Below, piece by piece: positions 14,061 to 22,071 of a stretch of 22,071 nucleotides of DNA. Source of the stretch: a virus; IMG/VR virus record IMGVR_UViG_3300042897_000068, positions 1-22,071 of that record. One strand, given 5' to 3'. Numbering within the stretch: position 1 is the stretch's first letter; the number at the start of each line of letters is the position of its first letter. The translations under genes and the position numbers were made by a program. Under the pieces are notes generated by a model. The model ran no database searches and was not told where the DNA came from. It saw only the letters and a list, made by a program, of their open reading frames with translations.

Positions 14061-15506
14061 TTAAGCTAATAAAATTCTTTGTGCTACACCATTAATAATT
14101 ACATTCCAGTATTTAGTTTGAGTTTGTGCTGCTATAACTACTGTACCTGCATTAGTTCCAGAAGAGCCAACAACAAATTGATTAGATGCTGTTGCAGTAG
14201 CATCAGTTCCAATCATAATACTATTATTAAAGTTACCTGATGCAGTACCAAGACCAATACCAATGTTATTACTTCCTGTAGTATTTGAATACAATGCTTG
14301 TAAACCTATTGCTATATTATAAACACCAGTAGTATTGCTATATGATGCACTTGAGCCTAGTCCAGTATTACCATATCCATTAGTATTTGCAGCAAGAGTA
14401 TTAGTACCTACTGCAGTGTTACTATAACCCTCTATATTACCATATAATGCAGAACTACCAATACCTATATTTGATGATCCAGATTGATTAGAATAAAGAG
14501 CATTTGTACCTATACTAGTGTTTGTATTTCCACTAGTAGTTGATCGTCCTGCCATATAACCAATTGATACATTTGAAATACCTGTATTAATTTGATAACC
14601 TGCATAATATCCAATTGCAATATTATTGTAACCAACTGTATTTGCATTTAATGAATAATTACCTATTCCAATATTATGGTTACCAGTTGTATTTGAATAA
14701 AGTGAAGAATCACCAATTGAAAGATTATTATAACCATTTGTAGTCATATATAAACAATCTATACCAATTCCAATATTTCTATACCCAGTTGTATTACTTC
14801 TTAACATATAATTTCCAACTGCAACATTTCTATAACCAGAACTGTTAGTATATAATGCTTCTAAACCTATTGCAAAATTACTATTTCCCCCATTACTATA
14901 TAAAGCACCATGACCTATTGCTGTATTATTAAAATTATTATTACAATTATATAATGAATCATTACCCAAAGCAAGATTATTATATCCAGTAACATTAGTA
15001 AATAATGATTGATTTCCTACTGCTAAATTGTTATAACCAGTAGTATTACTTTTTAGTGTACTTTCACCATATGATGTATTACTTGATATATTACCTTTAC
15101 CATTATTCCAAATGGTAAGATCTGTTGCATTTGATTCTAACCATGCAGGAACTCCAGCTACTATATTACCACTACCTAATACTGATGTACCATTAATAGT
15201 TTTGATATTAGTACCACTATATAGTATATTTTGTTTATTAGATATTTGAGAATACACATCAGAAAATTGAGATTGTACACCAGAAAATTGACTTTGCAAA
15301 TCTTCTTGAGCATAGATATTACCACTTATACTACCCCAACTTGATGATGCTGAAGAAAGTAAATCTCCTACTGATATTGCTCCTGGCAAATACCCATCTT
15401 TTCTTCTATTATCTTTTAACCCTACAGGGATAAGAGTTTGAGAAGCATCTACTGTTGTTACTTGTCTCTTACTCTTAAGCCAAGAGATAAAATTTAAAAC
15501 ATCCAT
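14061..15506 (-). CDS. Tail fibre of shared-anchor family with about sixteen 17-residue repeats, 481 aa
   Basis: Domains: anchor 1-51 (MDVLNFISWLKSKRQVTTVD, ASQTLIPVGLKDNRRKDGYL, PGAISVGDLL); coiled-coil-like neck 66-92 (EDLQSQFSGVQSQFSDVYSQ); collar segment GTNIKTINGTSVLGSGNI (98-115), familiar from phage fibres; neck module LTIWNNGKGNI (130-140) shared with the 514-aa fibre; repeats 154-424 (for example NTTGYNNLAVGNQSLFT); tail module ATASNQFVVGSSGTNAGTVV and cap YWNVIINGVAQRILLA. Very poor in charge, rich in Asn, Gly and Ser, as expected for an elongated trimeric beta-roll. Start supported by identity with paralogue starts. 24 nt from the 514-aa gene. Confidence 0.8.
   Translation of the reverse strand: MDVLNFISWLKSKRQVTTVDASQTLIPVGLKDNRRKDGYLPGAISVGDLLSSASSSWGSISGNIYAQEDLQSQFSGVQSQFSDVYSQISNKQNILYSGTNIKTINGTSVLGSGNIVAGVPAWLESNATDLTIWNNGKGNISSNTSYGESTLKSNTTGYNNLAVGNQSLFTNVTGYNNLALGNDSLYNCNNNFNNTAIGHGALYSNGGNSNFAIGLEALYTNSSGYRNVAVGNYMLRSNTTGYRNIGIGIDCLYMTTNGYNNLSIGDSSLYSNTTGNHNIGIGNYSLNANTVGYNNIAIGYYAGYQINTGISNVSIGYMAGRSTTSGNTNTSIGTNALYSNQSGSSNIGIGSSALYGNIEGYSNTAVGTNTLAANTNGYGNTGLGSSASYSNTTGVYNIAIGLQALYSNTTGSNNIGIGLGTASGNFNNSIMIGTDATATASNQFVVGSSGTNAGTVVIAAQTQTKYWNVIINGVAQRILLA
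14235..15047 (-). repeat. Coding array of 17-residue (51-nt) fibre repeats, about 16 copies
   Basis: Consecutive units such as NTTGYNNLAVGNQSLFT, NVTGYNNLALGNDSLYN, NTTGNHNIGIGNYSLNA and NTTGSNNIGIGLGTASG; one unit is 16 residues. Conserved are the NxxG turn, the N at position 7 and the (A/I/V)-x-G at 9-11. DNA copies are diverged but keep similar AT-rich codons, which could allow slippage or recombination. Confidence 0.85.
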
Positions 15507-15530
15507 TTTTATTTATTTTTAAGTTAGTTA

Positions 15531-17075
15531 TTATGCTAATAAGATTTTTCTTGCTACACCATTGATTACAACATTCCATACATTAGAAGAAGTGTTAATT
15601 TCTGATGCTACTGAACCTGCATTTGTTCCTGCGGATCCTACTGAAAATTGATTAGCTGCTGTAGCAGCTGCTCCAAAACCTAATATTACCGAACCACTAA
15701 AATTACCTGAAAGTGTAGCAACACCAATCATAGTATTATTATTACCAGATACATTTGTTGTTCCAGCTGTATTTCCTATAGCAATGTTATTACTTCCTGT
15801 AATATTATTTGTTAATGATCCACTACCTATTGCTGTATTTGCTTGTCCTATTGTGTTATTATTTAATGCTCCTGAACCTATAGCTGTATTGTCAATTCCT
15901 GTAGTTGTTGAATACATAGCAGACTTTCCAACAGCAGTATTATCATTCCCTATTGTATTTAAGAACAATGCCTGTACACCAACACTAGTATTATTATTAC
16001 CAGTAGTATTAGTTAATAATGAACTATTACCAACAGCAGTATTATAACTTCCAGTAGTTGTATTTAATCCTGAACTAAAACCAATTGTAGTATTTCCTGT
16101 TCCAGATGTTGTAAAAAGTGAAGCACTATAACCAATTGCAGTATTTCCTTGAGCTAATGCATTTTGTAAAGTTCCAGAACCAATTGCTATATTTCCACTA
16201 TAGATTGTATTAGTATTTAAAGACTTATAACCTATTGCAACATTGTCTGTACCTGTTGTATTATTTTGTAATGCTTGTAGTCCAAATGCTGAATTATTAA
16301 TACCAGTAGTTGTATTTCTCATAGTATCGTTACCAACAGCTGTATTGCCACCATTTGCTGCATTAAAACTTGATAAAGCATAAGAACCAATTGCTAATAA
16401 ATCATTACTTAAAGTATTTGCTTGCAATGCATTAGTACCTATTGCTATATTTCTTGATCTAATTTGAGAAGATGAACTTGCTCCCCAACCAATTGCAACA
16501 TTAGTTTGACCTGATGTATTTGCATATAACGCATCTGAACCAATAGCAATATTACCCGCTCCAGTAGTATTTTGTTGCATTGCTGCATATCCATATACAG
16601 TATTATTCCAACCAGTAGTATTATTTCTAAATGCCTGCATACCGTATGCAGTATTAGTGTCAATATTACCTTTACCATTATTCCAAATAGTAAGTTCACT
16701 TCCATTGTACTCTAACCAATAAGGTAATGTACTACCAGCATAGTTAGGAATATTTAAAGTTGATCCAATTAACGTAGCTGCACCAGATGAACCTGATGTA
16801 GTTAAAGTAATATTATTCTGTTTAGCATTTAATAAAGATATTAAATCACCTTGAGTATTAATGTTACCAACAATAGATCCCCAAGTAGGGGTAGTTGGAG
16901 GTAATAATCCTGCAATACTACTAACTAAATCAGTTGTAGTTATTAATGCTGGTTGATAATTACCATAAAAGTTTGCATCTCTTACACCAATAGTAAACAA
17001 GTCTGTTGCTTCTAATAGTGTTCTAACCTTTCTATTATCAATAAGGTTAGTATAATTTGTTATATTGTTTAACAT
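15531..17075 (-). CDS. Tail fibre with divergent anchor and about eighteen 17-residue repeats, 514 aa
   Basis: Domains: N-terminus 1-53 (MLNNITNYTNLIDNRKVRTL, LFTIGVRDANFYGNYQPALI, TTTDLV), a divergent version of the family anchor that keeps the '(I/V)G(V/L)+D ... Y-x-P-(A/G)-(L/A)-I-(T/S)-x-x-D-L' spacing; segment WGSIVGNINTQGDLISLLNA (65-84); module LTIWNNGKGNI (129-139), as in the 481-aa fibre; repeats about 152-457 (NTTGNNNTSVGVQALFL, NTIGNDNTAVGKSAMYS); then ATAANQFSVGSAGTNAGSVA and cap VWNVVINGVARKILLA. The cap is almost the same as that of the 481-aa fibre although the anchor differs. Separated by 31 nt from the 719-aa gene. Confidence 0.8.
   Translation of the reverse strand: MLNNITNYTNLIDNRKVRTLLEATDLFTIGVRDANFYGNYQPALITTTDLVSSIAGLLPPTTPTWGSIVGNINTQGDLISLLNAKQNNITLTTSGSSGAATLIGSTLNIPNYAGSTLPYWLEYNGSELTIWNNGKGNIDTNTAYGMQAFRNNTTGWNNTVYGYAAMQQNTTGAGNIAIGSDALYANTSGQTNVAIGWGASSSSQIRSRNIAIGTNALQANTLSNDLLAIGSYALSSFNAANGGNTAVGNDTMRNTTTGINNSAFGLQALQNNTTGTDNVAIGYKSLNTNTIYSGNIAIGSGTLQNALAQGNTAIGYSASLFTTSGTGNTTIGFSSGLNTTTGSYNTAVGNSSLLTNTTGNNNTSVGVQALFLNTIGNDNTAVGKSAMYSTTTGIDNTAIGSGALNNNTIGQANTAIGSGSLTNNITGSNNIAIGNTAGTTNVSGNNNTMIGVATLSGNFSGSVILGFGAAATAANQFSVGSAGTNAGSVASEINTSSNVWNVVINGVARKILLA
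15705..16622 (-). repeat. Coding array of 17-residue fibre repeats in the 514-aa fibre
   Basis: Units such as NTTGAGNIAIGSDALYA, NTIGNDNTAVGKSAMYS, NTIGQANTAIGSGSLTN and NITGSNNIAIGNTAGTT, all 17 residues, interrupted by a few longer insertions (SSSSQIRSRNIAIG; SSFNAANGGNTAVG). The period is set by the protein; it is not a CRISPR array. Confidence 0.85.
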
Positions 17076-17106
17076 ATCTTTTTAATTTAATTATTTATAT
17101 AAACTT

Positions 17107-19266
17107 TTAATCTGCAAGAAGCATCTTGTATGTAACACCATTTATTACAATTGGAAAATGTTTTGTTGATGATAATGCTGCTGCTGTAACTGCAGTTGCA
17201 TTACTAACTGTTAAATCACCTTGTAAGTATGTTCTTACTATATTAGTATTACCTAATTGAACTGTATTAGAACCTTTACCTTCAGCATCATAACCAATTA
17301 CTATTTGATTTGTTTGATTATTAGCTGATGATTTTGAATTTCTACCTATAAATACTGAAGCTGTTGTAAGTGTTAAATCTGTTAAACCTACAATATAACG
17401 ACCAGCATTATGTCCTAAAAATGTATTATCATCACCTACAGTACTAAATCTACCTGCACTAATACCTAATGCTACGTTATAGGAACCTGATATATTATCA
17501 CCAAATGCTGACTCACCTATTGCAACATTGTAACTTCCAGTAGTATTGTCAGATGCTGCAATAAAACCTATAAAAGTATTATTTATACCAGAAAAATTTG
17601 AATCTCCAGCATAACTACCTAAGAATGTATTACCACCACCATTATGATTATCTCTACCTGATTGAAATCCTAAAAATGTATTATTAGAACCTGTAGTATT
17701 ATCAAGATTACTATTGATTCCACCAATTGTATTATTAAGATTATCTGCAACAAAAATATTACCAATATTTACAGTATTTGAACCTTTACCAATTGTACTA
17801 AAACCAATTGCAATTTCATTTATTTGATTATCTGCAAAAGATTTTATATTTGTACCTAAGAAAACTGAATTATTAGCAATAGTCATTGGTGTAGTACCGT
17901 CTGCTAAAAATGCACCTGAGTTTATACCAAGAAATGTATTATTATCACCTATTGTATTACTGAAACCAGCATTATTTCCAATAAATGTATTGGCATTTCC
18001 AATTGAAGTATAATAACCTGCTGAGTAACCAAAAAATGCATTACTGTTACCAGAAATATTTGAATATCCTGAATCATTTCCATAAAATGAATTACCTGCG
18101 CCAATAGTGTTTGAGGTTCCAGATGCATATCCTGTAAATGTATTATACAATGCAGTTAAAGTATTATATCCAGAATAGCCACCAATAAACGTATTAAAAC
18201 TTGCAGTAGTATTTTTAGATCCAGCACTTTGTCCTAAGAATGTATTTTGAAAACCAATAGTATTACTTTTTCCTGATTGAAAGCCTACAAAAGTATTACT
18301 AGCACCAGTAGTATTAACATTACCAGTTAGAGCTCCAACAAATGTATTTGCCGTTCCTGTTGTATTTAAACGTCCTGATGAAACACCATTAAAGGTATTA
18401 TAATCTGCTATATTAAAATATCCAGCATTAGAACCAGTAAAGGTATTAAAACTACCAATTGAATTTGTAAATCCTGCTACTCTACCTATAAATGTATTAT
18501 CATTTGCTGTAGTATTATTATAACCTGATCTATCACCAAAAAATGAATTACTATTACCAGATGAATTTAACTTTCCTGATGTATAACCAAAGAAGGCATT
18601 AGACTCACCAATTGTATTTACAGATCCAGAATCATATCCAAAGAATGAATTAAATGTTCCTATAGTATTTAAATCTCCAGCATTATTTCCTACAACAGTA
18701 TTAGATATTTGATTACCATTACCTCTACCTACTCTAACTTCAAAGAAATATGAATCAGCAATAAGAGTATGTATAGCTTCATCTCTTGATATTGGTAATG
18801 TTTTATTACCTCCAGCATCAATTGATGTACCTAAAAAATTCCATTCTGTATTATTAGCAATAGATATTGTTTGATAACTTGTTCCATTCCATATCCATGT
18901 TGATGTATCTACTGTTGATACATATAATACATTTGTTAATGCTGGAGTATTTGGAGTAAAAATTACACCTGGTGTTGTTGGAGTCAATTGATTAAAGTTT
19001 ATAACTTCATCAACTATAGGTACTGGTATTACAGATAATACCCCTAAGTTATTAATAGTTAATCCAGGACCTACTATAATTGTTCCAGGTGTAGTTGTTG
19101 TTGCAAGGGGAACAATGCTTCCAAATGCAGATATTGGTACTACAACTGATAAGAATTTATCATCTCTTGATAAATCTGGTACACCAACAACGGTTACCGC
19201 ATTTGCAGGTACAGTCGCTCTGTAATCCTTTCTTTTAATCCAGCTTATAAAATTTAAAACATCCAT
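17107..19266 (-). CDS. Longest 17-mer-repeat tail fibre, internally duplicated, 719 aa
   Basis: Start placed at ATG 19266 (MDVLNFISWIKRKD), which matches paralogue starts; the frame extends upstream to 19290 but that ATG lies inside the hairpin at 19282-19314. Domains: anchor 1-50 with a diverged second half; beta-like domain 60-180 (TSTWIWNGTSYQTISIANNT, TLPISRDEAIHTLI); first repeat array about 186-455 of the form N-T-F-x-G-x-x-(A/S)-G-x-x-N-T-x-G; module SVFLGTNIKSFADN and FSTIGKGSNTVNIGN (about 467-503); second, shorter array 518-625; second copy of the module SVFIGRNSKSSANNQTN and YDAEGKGSNTVQLGN (637-673); then TYLQGDLTVSNA and cap KHFPIVINGVTYKMLLAD. First gene of its unit. Confidence 0.8.
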   Translation of the reverse strand: MDVLNFISWIKRKDYRATVPANAVTVVGVPDLSRDDKFLSVVVPISAFGSIVPLATTTTPGTIIVGPGLTINNLGVLSVIPVPIVDEVINFNQLTPTTPGVIFTPNTPALTNVLYVSTVDTSTWIWNGTSYQTISIANNTEWNFLGTSIDAGGNKTLPISRDEAIHTLIADSYFFEVRVGRGNGNQISNTVVGNNAGDLNTIGTFNSFFGYDSGSVNTIGESNAFFGYTSGKLNSSGNSNSFFGDRSGYNNTTANDNTFIGRVAGFTNSIGSFNTFTGSNAGYFNIADYNTFNGVSSGRLNTTGTANTFVGALTGNVNTTGASNTFVGFQSGKSNTIGFQNTFLGQSAGSKNTTASFNTFIGGYSGYNTLTALYNTFTGYASGTSNTIGAGNSFYGNDSGYSNISGNSNAFFGYSAGYYTSIGNANTFIGNNAGFSNTIGDNNTFLGINSGAFLADGTTPMTIANNSVFLGTNIKSFADNQINEIAIGFSTIGKGSNTVNIGNIFVADNLNNTIGGINSNLDNTTGSNNTFLGFQSGRDNHNGGGNTFLGSYAGDSNFSGINNTFIGFIAASDNTTGSYNVAIGESAFGDNISGSYNVALGISAGRFSTVGDDNTFLGHNAGRYIVGLTDLTLTTASVFIGRNSKSSANNQTNQIVIGYDAEGKGSNTVQLGNTNIVRTYLQGDLTVSNATAVTAAALSSTKHFPIVINGVTYKMLLAD
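17392..18711 (-). repeat. Two coding arrays of NTFxG-type 17-residue repeats separated by a GKGSNTV module
   Basis: Units such as NTTGASNTFVGFQSGKS, NTIGFQNTFLGQSAGSK and NTTGTANTFVGALTGNV. The arrays cover residues about 186-455 and 518-625 of the 719-aa fibre. These repeats prefer Phe at position 9 and Gly at position 15, unlike the A-I-G/A-L-Y type in the two following fibres. Confidence 0.8.
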
Positions 19267-19281
19267 AATGCATATATATTT

Positions 19282-19314
19282 AAATACCACAGACTTATTT
19301 TATCTGTGGTATTT
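19282..19314 (-). terminator. Perfect 12-bp hairpin between fibre units, possible terminator
   Basis: Arms AAATACCACAGA and TCTGTGGTATTT pair perfectly around a 9-nt loop. It lies 10 nt after the stop of the 76-aa gene and 16 nt before the 719-aa fibre start. The T-run after it on the minus strand is short (ATTTAAATATATA), so it may be a weak terminator, an RNA-processing or stability hairpin, or a bidirectional structure. Confidence 0.55.
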
Positions 19315-19323
19315 TAATTAAAT

Positions 19324-19554
19324 TTATTTATAAAGTTCTTTTACTCTTGCAACTACATCTGCATCAGTCCATTCACCAATTGCATCATATGCATCTCCAG
19401 TCCATAGTACTAAAATACCTAGTTCTTTAGTATATGCTTTTACTTCTTTTCTAGAGTTGTTATCTACAATCTCATCAATTGTTAATTCTTCAATAGTTCT
19501 TTTTAATTCTTGAACTACTACTATTTCTTTTGCTGTGTCAAATGTGATTTTCAT
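19324..19554 (-). CDS. Small fibre-linked phage protein, 76 aa
   Basis: Seen: MKITFDTAKEIVVVQELKRT then IEELTIDEIVDNNSRKEVKA, VLWTGDAYDAIGEWTDADVV and ARVKELYK. Two strands then helices, acidic. The 'ITIxEIVDNxxxKxV ... LWxGDAYDAIGxWTDxDVxARxxELY' pattern is one I remember beside fibre genes in Bacteroidota phages, with no known activity. It directly follows the 397-aa fibre (16-nt gap) and precedes a hairpin, so a dedicated fibre chaperone, adaptor or small virion protein is a fair guess. Confidence 0.6.
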   Translation of the reverse strand: MKITFDTAKEIVVVQELKRTIEELTIDEIVDNNSRKEVKAYTKELGILVLWTGDAYDAIGEWTDADVVARVKELYK

Positions 19555-19570
19555 AATATGTTTTTATTTA

Positions 19571-20764
19571 TTAAAGTCTTACTGCCTCTATGGCAAAAGT
19601 TGTTTGATTATAGTATAAGTATGTATTTCCAGATATAGCTCCATTTGGAACATTGATAGCTGTAGTTGCTGCTGTTCTATCTACATAAGAGGGTAAAGTT
19701 GCATTAGCAAATACTGTTTGTCCTGATAGTGTTCCAGCTTTATGTGCTTGATAGCCAAAAGCATTAACATTATTACCTGTAGAATTCATTCCTGCTTCTT
19801 GACCAAAGAAATTAGAACGGCTAACTGAACTTTGGTAACCAGCATGATTACCAATAAAATTTGAATCAGTAGCATTAGTAGATTGAAACCCTGCCTCTAA
19901 ACCAATAAAATTACATCTAACCGCATTGGTTGCTTGATAACCAGCAGCTGCTCCTATAAAATTAGATGTATTAGCATTAGTTGCTTCATATCCTGCATTG
20001 GGTCCTAAGAAATTACCTTGATATGCATTGGTTGCATTTTGCCCAGCAGATTGCCCAAAGAAATTAGAATAGTTTGCAGATGTTGCACCATACCCTGAAT
20101 CTTTACCTAAAAAATTAGAATCATTTGCATTAGTGGCTCCTCTACCAGCATTGTATCCTAAAAAATTTGATTCAGTTGCATTAGTTGCATTTAATCCTGC
20201 ATACCTTCCTAAAAAATTAGAATCATTTGCACTAGTTACATTTGCACCAGCATCTAGCCCGATAAAATTTGAATACTGTATATTAGTGGTTCTAGCACCT
20301 GCTTCAAATCCTATAAAGTTACAATGAATTGCACCACCTGCAGTTTCTCCTGCGCTTTTACCAATAAAGTTACAAGCATTTGAACCATAAGCACTTCTTC
20401 CTGCTTGTTGACCAATGAAATTAGAAACAACTGCATTATTAGAACCTTCTCCTGCAAGTTCTCCTAACGAAACACAAGATATTGAACTATAAGTACCGGC
20501 TTGTTGACCAAATGCAATATTATATCTATTATCAAGTAGAGCAGCTGGTGGAGTCAAGGTATAGATTGAATTACCATTAACAGCAAATAATGAAGGTGGA
20601 GCAGGTGTTGATGCTAACAAATCAGCTACAGATATTACTCCTGTTAAGTAACCATCATCTCTGCGGTCATCTTTTTGTGCTACTGGTATAAGAGATTTAG
20701 TTGGATCTACTGAGGTTACTTGACGTTTACCTTTTACCCAAGAAATAATATTTAAAATATCCAT
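19571..20764 (-). CDS. Tail fibre of shared-anchor family with SNFxG-type 17-mers, 397 aa
   Basis: Start placed at ATG 20764 (MDILNIISWVKGKRQVTSVD), matching paralogues; an upstream in-frame ATG at 20806 would translate promoter-like sequence. Domains: anchor 1-51 (PTKSLIPVAQKDDRRDDGYL, TGVISVADLL); linker SIYTLTPPAALLDNRYN; repeats 82-340 of the type ATNAxxSNFxGxxAGxx (NATNATESNFLGYNAGR, GATNANDSNFLGKDSGY); C-terminal domain TLPSYVDRTAATTAINVPNG, then TYLYYNQTTFAIEAVRL, which differs from the INGV cap of its paralogues. The repeats are the most regular in the window. The alternative end suggests a different tip or receptor. Confidence 0.8.
   Translation of the reverse strand: MDILNIISWVKGKRQVTSVDPTKSLIPVAQKDDRRDDGYLTGVISVADLLASTPAPPSLFAVNGNSIYTLTPPAALLDNRYNIAFGQQAGTYSSISCVSLGELAGEGSNNAVVSNFIGQQAGRSAYGSNACNFIGKSAGETAGGAIHCNFIGFEAGARTTNIQYSNFIGLDAGANVTSANDSNFLGRYAGLNATNATESNFLGYNAGRGATNANDSNFLGKDSGYGATSANYSNFFGQSAGQNATNAYQGNFLGPNAGYEATNANTSNFIGAAAGYQATNAVRCNFIGLEAGFQSTNATDSNFIGNHAGYQSSVSRSNFFGQEAGMNSTGNNVNAFGYQAHKAGTLSGQTVFANATLPSYVDRTAATTAINVPNGAISGNTYLYYNQTTFAIEAVRL
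19745..20521 (-). repeat. Coding array of SNFxGxxAG 17-residue repeats
   Basis: About fifteen units in residues 82-340 of the 397-aa fibre, for example GATSANYSNFFGQSAGQ, NATNAYQGNFLGPNAGY and EATNANTSNFIGAAAGY. The NFxG core recurs every 17 residues, with occasional 15-19-residue units near the start. Confidence 0.85.
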
Positions 20765-20810
20765 GACTTTATCTTTACATTTATTTATATAATATAATAT
20801 ACACAATAAT
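20765..20810 (-). promoter_or_regulatory. Putative promoter of the 397-aa fibre gene
   Basis: On the minus strand TGTATATT (20803-20796) is followed by ATATTATATAAATAAAT and lies 31 nt before the ATG at 20764, directly after the terminator at 20811-20850. It closely resembles the segment at 12863-12839. Confidence 0.4.
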
Positions 20811-20850
20811 AATATAAAAACAAAATCCCAGACTATTAATCCGGGATTTT
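20811..20850 (-). terminator. Second terminator, end of the mini-unit
   Basis: On the minus strand AAAATCCC (20850-20843) pairs with GGGATTTT (20829-20822), with one mismatch and a further G-C pair inside, followed by GTTTTTATATT. The stop codon of the 14-codon ORF lies in the loop. Confidence 0.7.
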
Positions 20851-20880
20851 CTTACCTAACTCATCTAGTAAATGTTGCAT
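20836..20880 (-). CDS. 14-codon ORF between two terminators (possible leader peptide)
   Basis: ATG at 20880 to TAA at 20836 encodes MQHLLDELGKKIPD. It begins 9 nt after the promoter-like TATATTTG (20897-20890), and its last four sense codons and stop fall in the stem and loop of the terminator at 20811-20850. A ribosome finishing this ORF would cover the hairpin, which is the arrangement of a translation-coupled attenuator or leader. It may equally be chance coding within a small RNA. Confidence 0.3.
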   Translation of the reverse strand: MQHLLDELGKKIPD

Positions 20881-20889
20881 GATACAGTG

Positions 20890-20897
20890 CAAATATA
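20890..20897 (-). promoter_or_regulatory. Promoter-like TATATTTG right after terminator
   Basis: TATATTTG on the minus strand fits the Bacteroidota -7 consensus TAnnTTTG and follows immediately on the T-tract of the terminator at 20899-20932. The same octamer follows the terminators at 4045-4076 and 12891-12916. No -33 TTTG is evident, as the upstream sequence is the hairpin. Confidence 0.4.
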
Positions 20898-20898
20898 A

Positions 20899-20932
20899 AT
20901 AAAAAATCCCAATAAGAATTAACTTATTGGGA
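20899..20932 (-). terminator. Strong rho-independent terminator after the lipoprotein gene
   Basis: On the minus strand a perfect 10-bp stem (TCCCAATAAG with CTTATTGGGA, 6-nt loop) is followed by TTTTTTATTT. It ends the co-chaperonin/DUF3310/lipoprotein unit, 60 nt after the lipoprotein stop. The 60 nt between (20933-20991) hold no gene I can support. Confidence 0.9.
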
Positions 20933-20991
20933 AATCTTCAGCCAGCGAAAAACTGAGAACAAAAAAGGTATGCAATATTAGGTATAATATT

Positions 20992-21225
20992 TTAATTAAT
21001 AAACCTTCTACCTCTCTTTTTTCTAACTTTTTTTGTTTTAACTAAACCACGTCTTGCCTGTTGTCTATTTTTTATCATTGCATTTTTCATTCTACCATCC
21101 TCAGCCATTACAGTTCTTTCTCTATTACCTAGATCAGAATTGTGAGTCCTACCTTGATTATAGTTAGGACCAACTATATGAGGAGCACATGAATACAATA
21201 ATAATACAAGCAACAAACATTTCAT
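20992..21225 (-). CDS. Small basic lipoprotein, 77 aa
   Basis: Seen: signal peptide MKCLLLVLLLYSC with lipobox L10-Y11-S12-C13, then APHIVGPNYNQGRTHNSDLG and a strongly basic C-terminus (QQARRGLVKTKKVRKKRGRR). Predicted to be lipidated at C13 and carried to the outer or inner membrane, leaving a 65-aa mature peptide with high positive charge. Phage lipoproteins of this size act as o-spanins (Rz1) or as superinfection-exclusion factors; the basic tail and the absence of Pro-richness argue somewhat against a classical Rz1, and the gene is far from the lysis block. ATGA overlap with the DUF3310 gene; followed by a terminator. A hydrophobic start with only one lysine is short for a signal peptide but acceptable. 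Confidence 0.65.
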   Translation of the reverse strand: MKCLLLVLLLYSCAPHIVGPNYNQGRTHNSDLGNRERTVMAEDGRMKNAMIKNRQQARRGLVKTKKVRKKRGRRFIN

Positions 21226-21662
21226 TTTTTCAGTTCAGCAATTCTTCTTTTTAAATACACTTCTGCTTTTTCCAGATCCTCTAACTCCTTAGAAGAATCT
21301 TTTTTACCTGCTCTTACAATATACTTAATTACATTACCTAAGTAAAAGTCTTTATCTAATCCCCATGCTTCAAGTACGTTGAATACTTCATATACATTTC
21401 CATCACAACCATAGTGAGCTGGTCTTAGTGGAGAAGCTTTAGCAGTACAATCTGGTACTGTAACCGCTTTAGGTTTTTGACCAGCAAAAGGATCTACTCC
21501 TACATAAGGACTTGGTTCAGTTTTCCTGATATAATCTTTATACATTTCCTGACTTTTATTTGCAGCAATCTCAGCCATAATTTTCAAACTCTTTTTATAT
21601 GTAGTAGATGTCTCAGGTTTTCCTACCATCCTTTTATATTCATTACAAACTAATTCAGCCAT
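21222..21662 (-). CDS. DUF3310-domain protein, 146 aa
   Basis: The C-terminal domain (residues 79-146) is a good match to the DUF3310 (SaV/nucleotide-kinase-annotated) family of phages: P81-A-H-Y84, VYEVFNVLEAWGLDKDFYLG (90-109), NVIKYIVRAGKKD (110-122) and LEDLEKAEVYLKRRI. This family is often annotated as a nucleotide kinase, but a true kinase P-loop is absent here; it resembles MazG-like helical folds, and activity is unproven. The N-terminal 75 residues are helical and specific to this protein. Start taken at 21662 (MAELVCNEYKR), one nt after the upstream stop (TAAGATG); an ATG at 21692 would overlap the co-chaperonin gene by 29 nt. Confidence 0.75.
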   Translation of the reverse strand: MAELVCNEYKRMVGKPETSTTYKKSLKIMAEIAANKSQEMYKDYIRKTEPSPYVGVDPFAGQKPKAVTVPDCTAKASPLRPAHYGCDGNVYEVFNVLEAWGLDKDFYLGNVIKYIVRAGKKDSSKELEDLEKAEVYLKRRIAELKK

Positions 21663-21663
21663 C

Positions 21664-21954
21664 TTACCAAACAATTGCAATGTCATATTCACTAAGCATA
21701 AGCTTAATACTTTTCTCTACTTCAATAACTTCTGCACCTTTAATTGCATTAACTGAAATATAAACTGAATCACCTGCTGCTACACTAGTAACATCATCAC
21801 CAACTGCATACACTTCTAAACGTGTCCACTGTTTCATTGACTCTTGTTCAATGTGTGCTTTATCTGCTTCACTCAATTGGATAGCTGATTCTTTCATCTC
21901 TGGTTGATTAACCAATACTCTTCGTCCTTTTAGGCTCTTAAATGCTGTACTCAT
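21664..21954 (-). CDS. GroES-like (cpn10) co-chaperonin, 96 aa
   Basis: Seen: the layout of a cpn10 chain at the right length: FKSLKGRRVLVNQPEMK (5-21), corresponding to 'xxPLxDRVLVxxxExE'; SAIQLSEADKAHI (23-35) in the place of the mobile loop with its I-x-L anchor; LEVYAVGDDVTSVAAGDSVY (46-65), corresponding to 'GxVVAVGxGxxxVKxGDxVx'; and IKLMLSEYDIAIVW (83-96), corresponding to 'YxIVxExDILAVx'. Phage co-chaperonins such as T4 gp31 replace host GroES so that GroEL can fold the major capsid protein. If correct, this gene would adapt the host chaperonin to a large virion protein. ATGA overlap with the partial gene upstream. The glycine pair of the GroES mobile loop is missing. Identified by pattern only. 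Confidence 0.65.
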   Translation of the reverse strand: MSTAFKSLKGRRVLVNQPEMKESAIQLSEADKAHIEQESMKQWTRLEVYAVGDDVTSVAAGDSVYISVNAIKGAEVIEVEKSIKLMLSEYDIAIVW

Positions 21955-22071
21955 GATTCTTGTTTTTTATTATAACTTAACATTTCTACTTTCAACTTTG
22001 GATAACTGTTATAGCCAACCAAACTAAAGTCCTGTAAAGATAGTGAATTTATTACACTATTAAAGTTTAAA
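21951..22071 (-). CDS. C-terminal 39 residues of a cut-off gene
   Basis: A frame open from the window edge to TGA at 21951, encoding LNFNSVINSLSLQDFSLVGY then NSYPKLKVEMLSYNKKQES. The stop overlaps the co-chaperonin start as ATGA, the junction type used throughout the window, and the codon use is alike, which supports a real gene end. Too little remains to name the protein. 'DFSLVGYxSYPKLKVEM' reads as alternating beta strands. It is the upstream member of the co-chaperonin unit. Confidence 0.55.
   Translation of the reverse strand, partial: LNFNSVINSLSLQDFSLVGYNSYPKLKVEMLSYNKKQES

Follow-up and report, generated by a model that had tools for sequence, protein, structure and literature searches.

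A Candidate Phage Small RNA with a Conserved Tag and a Covarying Terminator Hairpin Upstream of a Fibre Operon

Organization of the Locus

What is enclosed by two transcription terminators that stand close together, without a normal gene between them, in front of a phage fibre operon? The locus lies in a window (the whole stretch of DNA analysed, 22,071 bases) that is a fragment of a virus record and has its main genes on the minus strand, and all features of the locus described here are on that strand. A 77-residue ORF (20992–21225) marks the end of the preceding gene cluster, as judged from the ORF list and from relatives. It is followed by T1 (20907–20932), an intrinsic terminator hairpin comprising a 10-pair stem and TTTTTT, with a U-tract extending to about 20899, and by TATATTTG (20890–20897, designated P1), which is identified through its conservation as a putative Bacteroidota-type −7 box of a short RNA. 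Next is a short leader containing a 14-codon ORF, MQHLLDELGKKIPD (20836–20880, ATG to TAA). The tag UUAGGUAAG (20851–20859), recognized by exact match and by a covariance-model match, is separated from P1 by about 30 nt and forms the 5′ foot of T2 (20822–20850), a terminator hairpin with a covarying stem of 13 pairs and the U-tract GTTTTTAT. An AT-rich stretch that includes GTATATTATA then leads to the first fibre-like gene (19571–20764, ATG at 20764), which is the first of the fibre operon. The candidate promoter of this operon, P2 (TTTTG-N19-TATATTA, 20795–20825), has its TTTTG (20825–20821) within the U-tract of T2. The first fibre-like gene itself matched neither PHROG nor Pfam, and its reading as a fibre or structural gene is based on an N terminus common to the downstream genes and on the PHROG matches of those genes. 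T1, a promoter box, the ORF and the second hairpin, which the original prediction had joined into a mini transcription unit, are thus all present on the minus strand, and the TAA of MQHLLDELGKKIPD does fall in the loop of T2, the second terminator.

The number of terminators is not significant by itself because T1 and T2 are two of three terminator-like sites in 15000–22071, where the shuffled mean is 2.3. Folding z-scores, each against 200 shuffles, are −3.2 for the T1 region, −3.2 for the unit and −4.2 for T2. Of seven related records, four (G001, G002, G003, and G013) carry at this locus two intergenic terminators on the same strand with a spacing below 60 nt, and just one more such pair was found in the seven, on the minus strand of G013; both counts are lower bounds because the gene mask hides some copies. 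The arrangement is unusual, as had been supposed. Three such mini-units are present in G013 around 70.0–71.4 kb.

A Predicted Short RNA Conserved among Relatives

The reading that we favour, and regard as probable on balance, is that the locus encodes an untranslated phage small RNA of about 70 nt that has its own promoter, P1, ends at T2, and acts through the tag and the hairpin. We infer its transcription, its ends and its action in trans as follows. T1 would terminate the preceding transcript. The short RNA (20815–20886) would start at P1, a promoter of host type, a few bases past the TTTG if the predicted length of about 70 nt is correct, and would be terminated at the intrinsic terminator T2, whereas the fibre operon would be started separately from P2, with a −33-like box set in the U-tract of T2. 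The 5′ half of the RNA is AT-rich and is not conserved among relatives. The conserved parts would be the UAGGUAAG tag, predicted to be unpaired, and the T2 hairpin, through which the RNA may act in trans by base pairing or protein binding.

The conservation of P1, the tag, T2 and P2, the covariation of T2 and the nonconservation of the ORF were obtained by comparison. No near DNA relative of the window was found in the collection of named phages; IMG/VR contains many relatives. In G001 (117.9 kb), the longest of the close relatives to be read completely, leftward genes give way at a strand switch (∼24.6–24.9 kb) to a long block of rightward genes, and the equivalent of the window locus is at 27.3–27.5 kb. 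A BLAST comparison of the unit with loci from relatives showed P1, the tag and T2 to be retained in diverged relatives and the ATG and the ORF to be gone. A scan of IMG/VR with the pattern AGGTAAGRRRRTCC..GGRATTTTGTTTT returned 68 stretches, which together with the loci from relatives give 50 distinct elements. Because the tag and the outer stem are specified by this pattern, their invariance in the resulting alignment (A1) is no evidence; the inner stem was left free. The elements share descent, and the shuffles used below do not correct for kinship. The element pattern had 0 matches in the genome_contigs collection, so no bacterial carriers were identified there.

A motif-free survey that used the N terminus of the fibre protein as probe yielded 70 distinct upstream stretches. 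GTATATT[AG] is present in 34 of these, and 20 of the 34 also carry GGTAAG with a hairpin behind it; neither is present in the remaining 36. Among these 20 motif-bearing leaders, the strict TAnnTTTG box occurs in 12, TATATTTA in two, and TA[TC]ATTGCA in six. Both AGGUAAG and the promoter box upstream of it recur among the relatives, a group of phages from lake water, and the unit of 8-base tag and hairpin is conserved. The tag is lost in the A-site elements of L059 and L060, which keep P1 and the hairpin. Distant relatives (e.g. L066, L079, and L090) have only a plain terminator before P2, and in L180 the element comes immediately after a stop codon and no promoter was seen. Plain terminators in this position and an element right behind a gene are what would be expected of an insulator, in which T1 and T2 would shield the fibre promoter from upstream read-through, the RNA would be a by-product, and the tag would be part of an efficient terminator. 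We judge this explanation to be unlikely because a terminator accounts neither for the conserved promoter box just upstream nor for the paralogous promoter-tag-hairpin copy at the strand switch that is described below. In the fibre leaders of L066, L079, and L087, TTCTAG..CTAGAA or CTAG..CTAG pairing surrounds ACCTCATT just before the plain terminator, and CATTTACTAGA is common to the window RNA and L087.

Covariation in the Terminator Stems

In T2, all 416 of 416 cells of the 13 pairs are standard pairs in 32 of 33 distinct elements. Double changes occupy 41 cells, as compared with a mean of 12.6 in shuffled alignments and 0–6 in slid controls, and are confined to three loop-side pairs, which the search pattern had left free. 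In the outer purine run, A and G vary opposite a constant U run, and many of the stem changes produce G-U pairs; variation of this kind opposite a fixed U run preserves pairing solely in RNA of this strand. An element acting at the DNA level, either a dyad operator or a bidirectional terminator, is very improbable: the covariance model (R1) matches the hairpin on the opposite strand as well, at lower scores, but the G-U changes and the free A/G exchange in the 5′ purine run keep no dyad and no reverse U-tract. R1 matches the window at 20816–20859 with 64.3 bits, a score to be read with this sequence itself in the training set, and matches 14 of 19 records at E < 1e-6, at one or two places in each.

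The T1 stem is paired in 99 of 99 cells in 11 distinct sequences. Its changes are one-sided (G-U) only; among these 11 sequences there is neither a double change nor an excess over shuffles, so the support for T1 consists of conservation and stability. Compensatory changes, proposed as a check on both stems, are accordingly found in T2 (the 41 double-change cells) and are absent from T1.

The 14-Codon ORF

An ORF of 14–15 codons was seen by eye in six of the 20 motif-bearing fibre leaders (L112, L029, L010, L005, L004, and L002). In L037 and L038 it is reduced to ATG-CAA-TAA, encoding MQ with a stop at codon 3, and P1, the tag, T2 and P2 are retained. An ATG frame runs through the tag in 11 of the 49 pattern-found elements, always in the single frame that UAGGUAAG leaves open. 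The coding potential of the short RNA is therefore not conserved. One of the two explanations originally proposed was an attenuator in which ribosomes translating MQHLLDELGKKIPD set termination at T2, and the start of the ORF near the inferred 5′ end and its stop codon in the T2 loop would suit such a mechanism. However, the ORF is present in a minority of the leaders and is lost in two relatives that keep all else, so translation-coupled attenuation is not supported. Moreover, a single fold of the unit from the window shows no alternative antiterminator pairing, and the fibre operon has its own candidate promoter past T2. We consider a leader-peptide attenuator to be scarcely credible. The other explanation, a mini transcription unit producing a small regulatory RNA, fares better: the promoter box, the tag and the hairpin are conserved, the last with compensatory changes. 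In its sequence the locus has the attributes of a small-RNA gene, namely its own promoter, a predicted 3′ end at an intrinsic terminator, and no conserved coding potential.

Promoter Boxes on Either Side of the Hairpin

Of 49 elements, 30 have the box TAnnTTTG at a distance of 25–58 nt upstream of the tag (shuffles: mean 2.5, maximum 8), and exact TATATTTG is present in 27; no strict match is present in 19, some of which have TATATTTA, TATCTTAG or TA[TC]ATTGCA. The support for P1 comes from this conservation because TATATTTG, taken by itself, is no rarity in the window (five copies as compared with 3.8 expected). Across seven records, TATATTTG has a density of 1.15 per kb upstream of genes in the sense orientation (33 sites), 0.28 in the antisense orientation, and 0.10 in coding sequence. 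This distribution marks TATATTTG as a promoter box of general use in these phages. The published consensus for Bacteroides fragilis, as it is quoted in PMC7366714 and PMC2483708, has the same −7 box together with TTTG at −33, and PMC7366714 states that, for Flavobacterium johnsoniae, the −7 box alone has been confirmed. A clear TTTG at −33 was not seen by eye for P1 in the window.

Past T2, 34 of the 49 elements have TATATTA at 19–20 nt from the G of TTTTG (shuffles: mean 0.8, maximum 4), and TTG-N19/20-TATATTA occurs upstream of genes 19 times in the sense and 0 times in the antisense orientation in the seven records. The promoter boxes recur at near-constant distances before what appear, from length and order, to be the same genes in several records. 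The spacing, the sense-only enrichment and the recurrence before genes are the grounds on which P2 is considered the candidate promoter of the fibre operon, one whose upstream box falls within the U-tract of T2. From this overlap of terminator and promoter comes a simple map of two classes of promoter for a group of phages whose members identified here are known solely from metagenomes. A T4-type late promoter between T2 and the fibre gene was also considered; one copy of TATAAATA is located at 20789–20782, but the motif is not enriched in the window (nine copies as compared with 7.6 expected), and this candidate was rejected.

Paralogous Copies and Possible Modes of Action

Many genomes contain a paralogous promoter-RNA-terminator copy ∼1.4–3 kb upstream, for example at ∼2.5 kb in L112 and ∼1.4 kb in L062, and those strong R1 matches that can be placed are in the interval from the strand switch to the fibre locus. 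The upstream copies carry TATATTTG before the tag, with the exception of L168, which has TATATTTA instead, and mostly have another TATATTTG-like box past the U-tract. Downstream of them is an ORF of 96–111 residues, a candidate structured RNA (L143), or tRNA-Cys (L079). In L135, an additional promoter box and an ATG come after the tag element, and the next gene is preceded by a plain terminator and P2, showing that the element is not bound to P2. A third, weaker R1 match in L135 and L161 is a tagless plain terminator before P2.

In the put/nut antitermination sites of lambdoid phages, a conserved RNA tag is located near a terminator after a promoter. Factor-controlled termination of a similar kind, in which early transcripts from P1 would halt at T2 unless AGGUAAG in the nascent RNA is bound by a phage or host factor that permits read-through into the downstream genes, would fit the position of the tag, which is fixed at the foot of the terminator at a variable distance from P1 (30 to 54 nt), and the presence of a same-strand gene downstream in the copies read. 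Nevertheless, it seems to us rather unlikely. Most copies directly precede another promoter box (P2 or TATATTTG), which makes read-through unneeded, and the downstream content differs among copies; unlike put/nut, the phage element lacks a second hairpin or known factor, and its downstream genes have a promoter box of their own.

For the favoured small RNA, the tag was considered as a seed for pairing with phage mRNAs. Its complement CTTACCT occurs 0 times in 876 phage start regions from seven records. TTACCTA occurs six times in these regions as compared with a mean of 1.8, but this was not borne out in 425 upstream regions of the seven records, where complements of the tag are not enriched. 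A seed role of the tag toward phage mRNAs was rejected. A broader and more doubtful proposal, which we make tentatively, is that these elements could represent a new family of RNA regulators in lake phages, in which the UAGGUAAG tag and the terminator hairpin would form one recognition unit serving as a protein decoy or a termination switch, with one copy of a pair at the strand switch and the other before the fibre operon, and with a U-tract that doubles as the −33-like box of the next promoter. With a model, a tag and many natural variants, the RNA can be searched for in existing infection or metatranscriptome data.

Several other conserved stretches are present nearby. A second candidate noncoding RNA in L143 (2150–2330, plus strand), extending from GTGCCAGACACG to CCTGGGTTTTTT with its own TATATTTG and terminator, is also found in L008, L062, L145, and L168, near the upstream copy, and has no Rfam match in L143 or L062. 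Pairing of the tag with this RNA was rejected by eye because CTTACC (L143 and L008) is replaced by CTTCCC (L062 and L168) and the tag is unchanged. In the window, the minus-strand stretch before T1 (20933–20985) is well conserved, with CTCCTTTTTNTTCTCAGTYTTCTCGCTGG in relatives preceded by TACTTTAG or TAATATTG, and is possibly a further short RNA that ends at T1. A G-rich block, GGGGGTACC..., that is not in Rfam is located at the strand switch in L109 (3660–3760) and L049 (∼4900).

Comparison with Known RNAs and Phages

Phage-encoded small RNAs are a known kind of gene product: they are short, have their own promoter, end at an intrinsic terminator, and have no conserved ORF. The present family differs in that it is not in Rfam, is present in two copies in many genomes, and is known here from sequence. 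In the window, no match to an Rfam family attains the cut-off of that family, and the single match that does so in five related loci is a tRNA. NsiR1 (RF02399), also a short RNA with a 3′ terminator hairpin, weakly matches T2 and T1 (25.6 and 21 bits as compared with a cut-off of 39), mainly through the terminator. AgrB (RF02891) is of comparable length and has a 3′ hairpin, but it scores 29.7 bits against a cut-off of 40, and in the phage RNA its first stem lacks several pairs or has them disrupted. Membership in either family was rejected since both scores are below the cut-off and the best subthreshold matches are driven by the terminator. A description of the element was not found among the top matches, by title and abstract, in the open-access literature on crAss-like and Flavobacterium phages or on phage-encoded small RNAs; in the literature searched, little has been described of small RNAs in phages that have promoters of the Bacteroidota type. 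Phage-encoded small RNAs in general are reviewed in PMC12197685.

The thymidylate synthase resembles those of Cellulophaga phages, one structural protein resembles cyanophage proteins, and the capsid protein resembles those of Leptolyngbya phage Lbo-JY46 and crAss-like phages with 22–29% identity. On these protein similarities, the kinship to named phages is distant, and the resemblance to crAss-like phages is likewise only distant. A Bacteroidota host is favoured by the TAnnTTTG promoter box. In Lbo-JY46 (L259), TAnnTTTG has a density of 5.7 per kb in sense upstream regions as compared with 1.3 in the antisense orientation, a Bacteroidota-like signal that makes the recorded cyanobacterial host of this phage worth checking.
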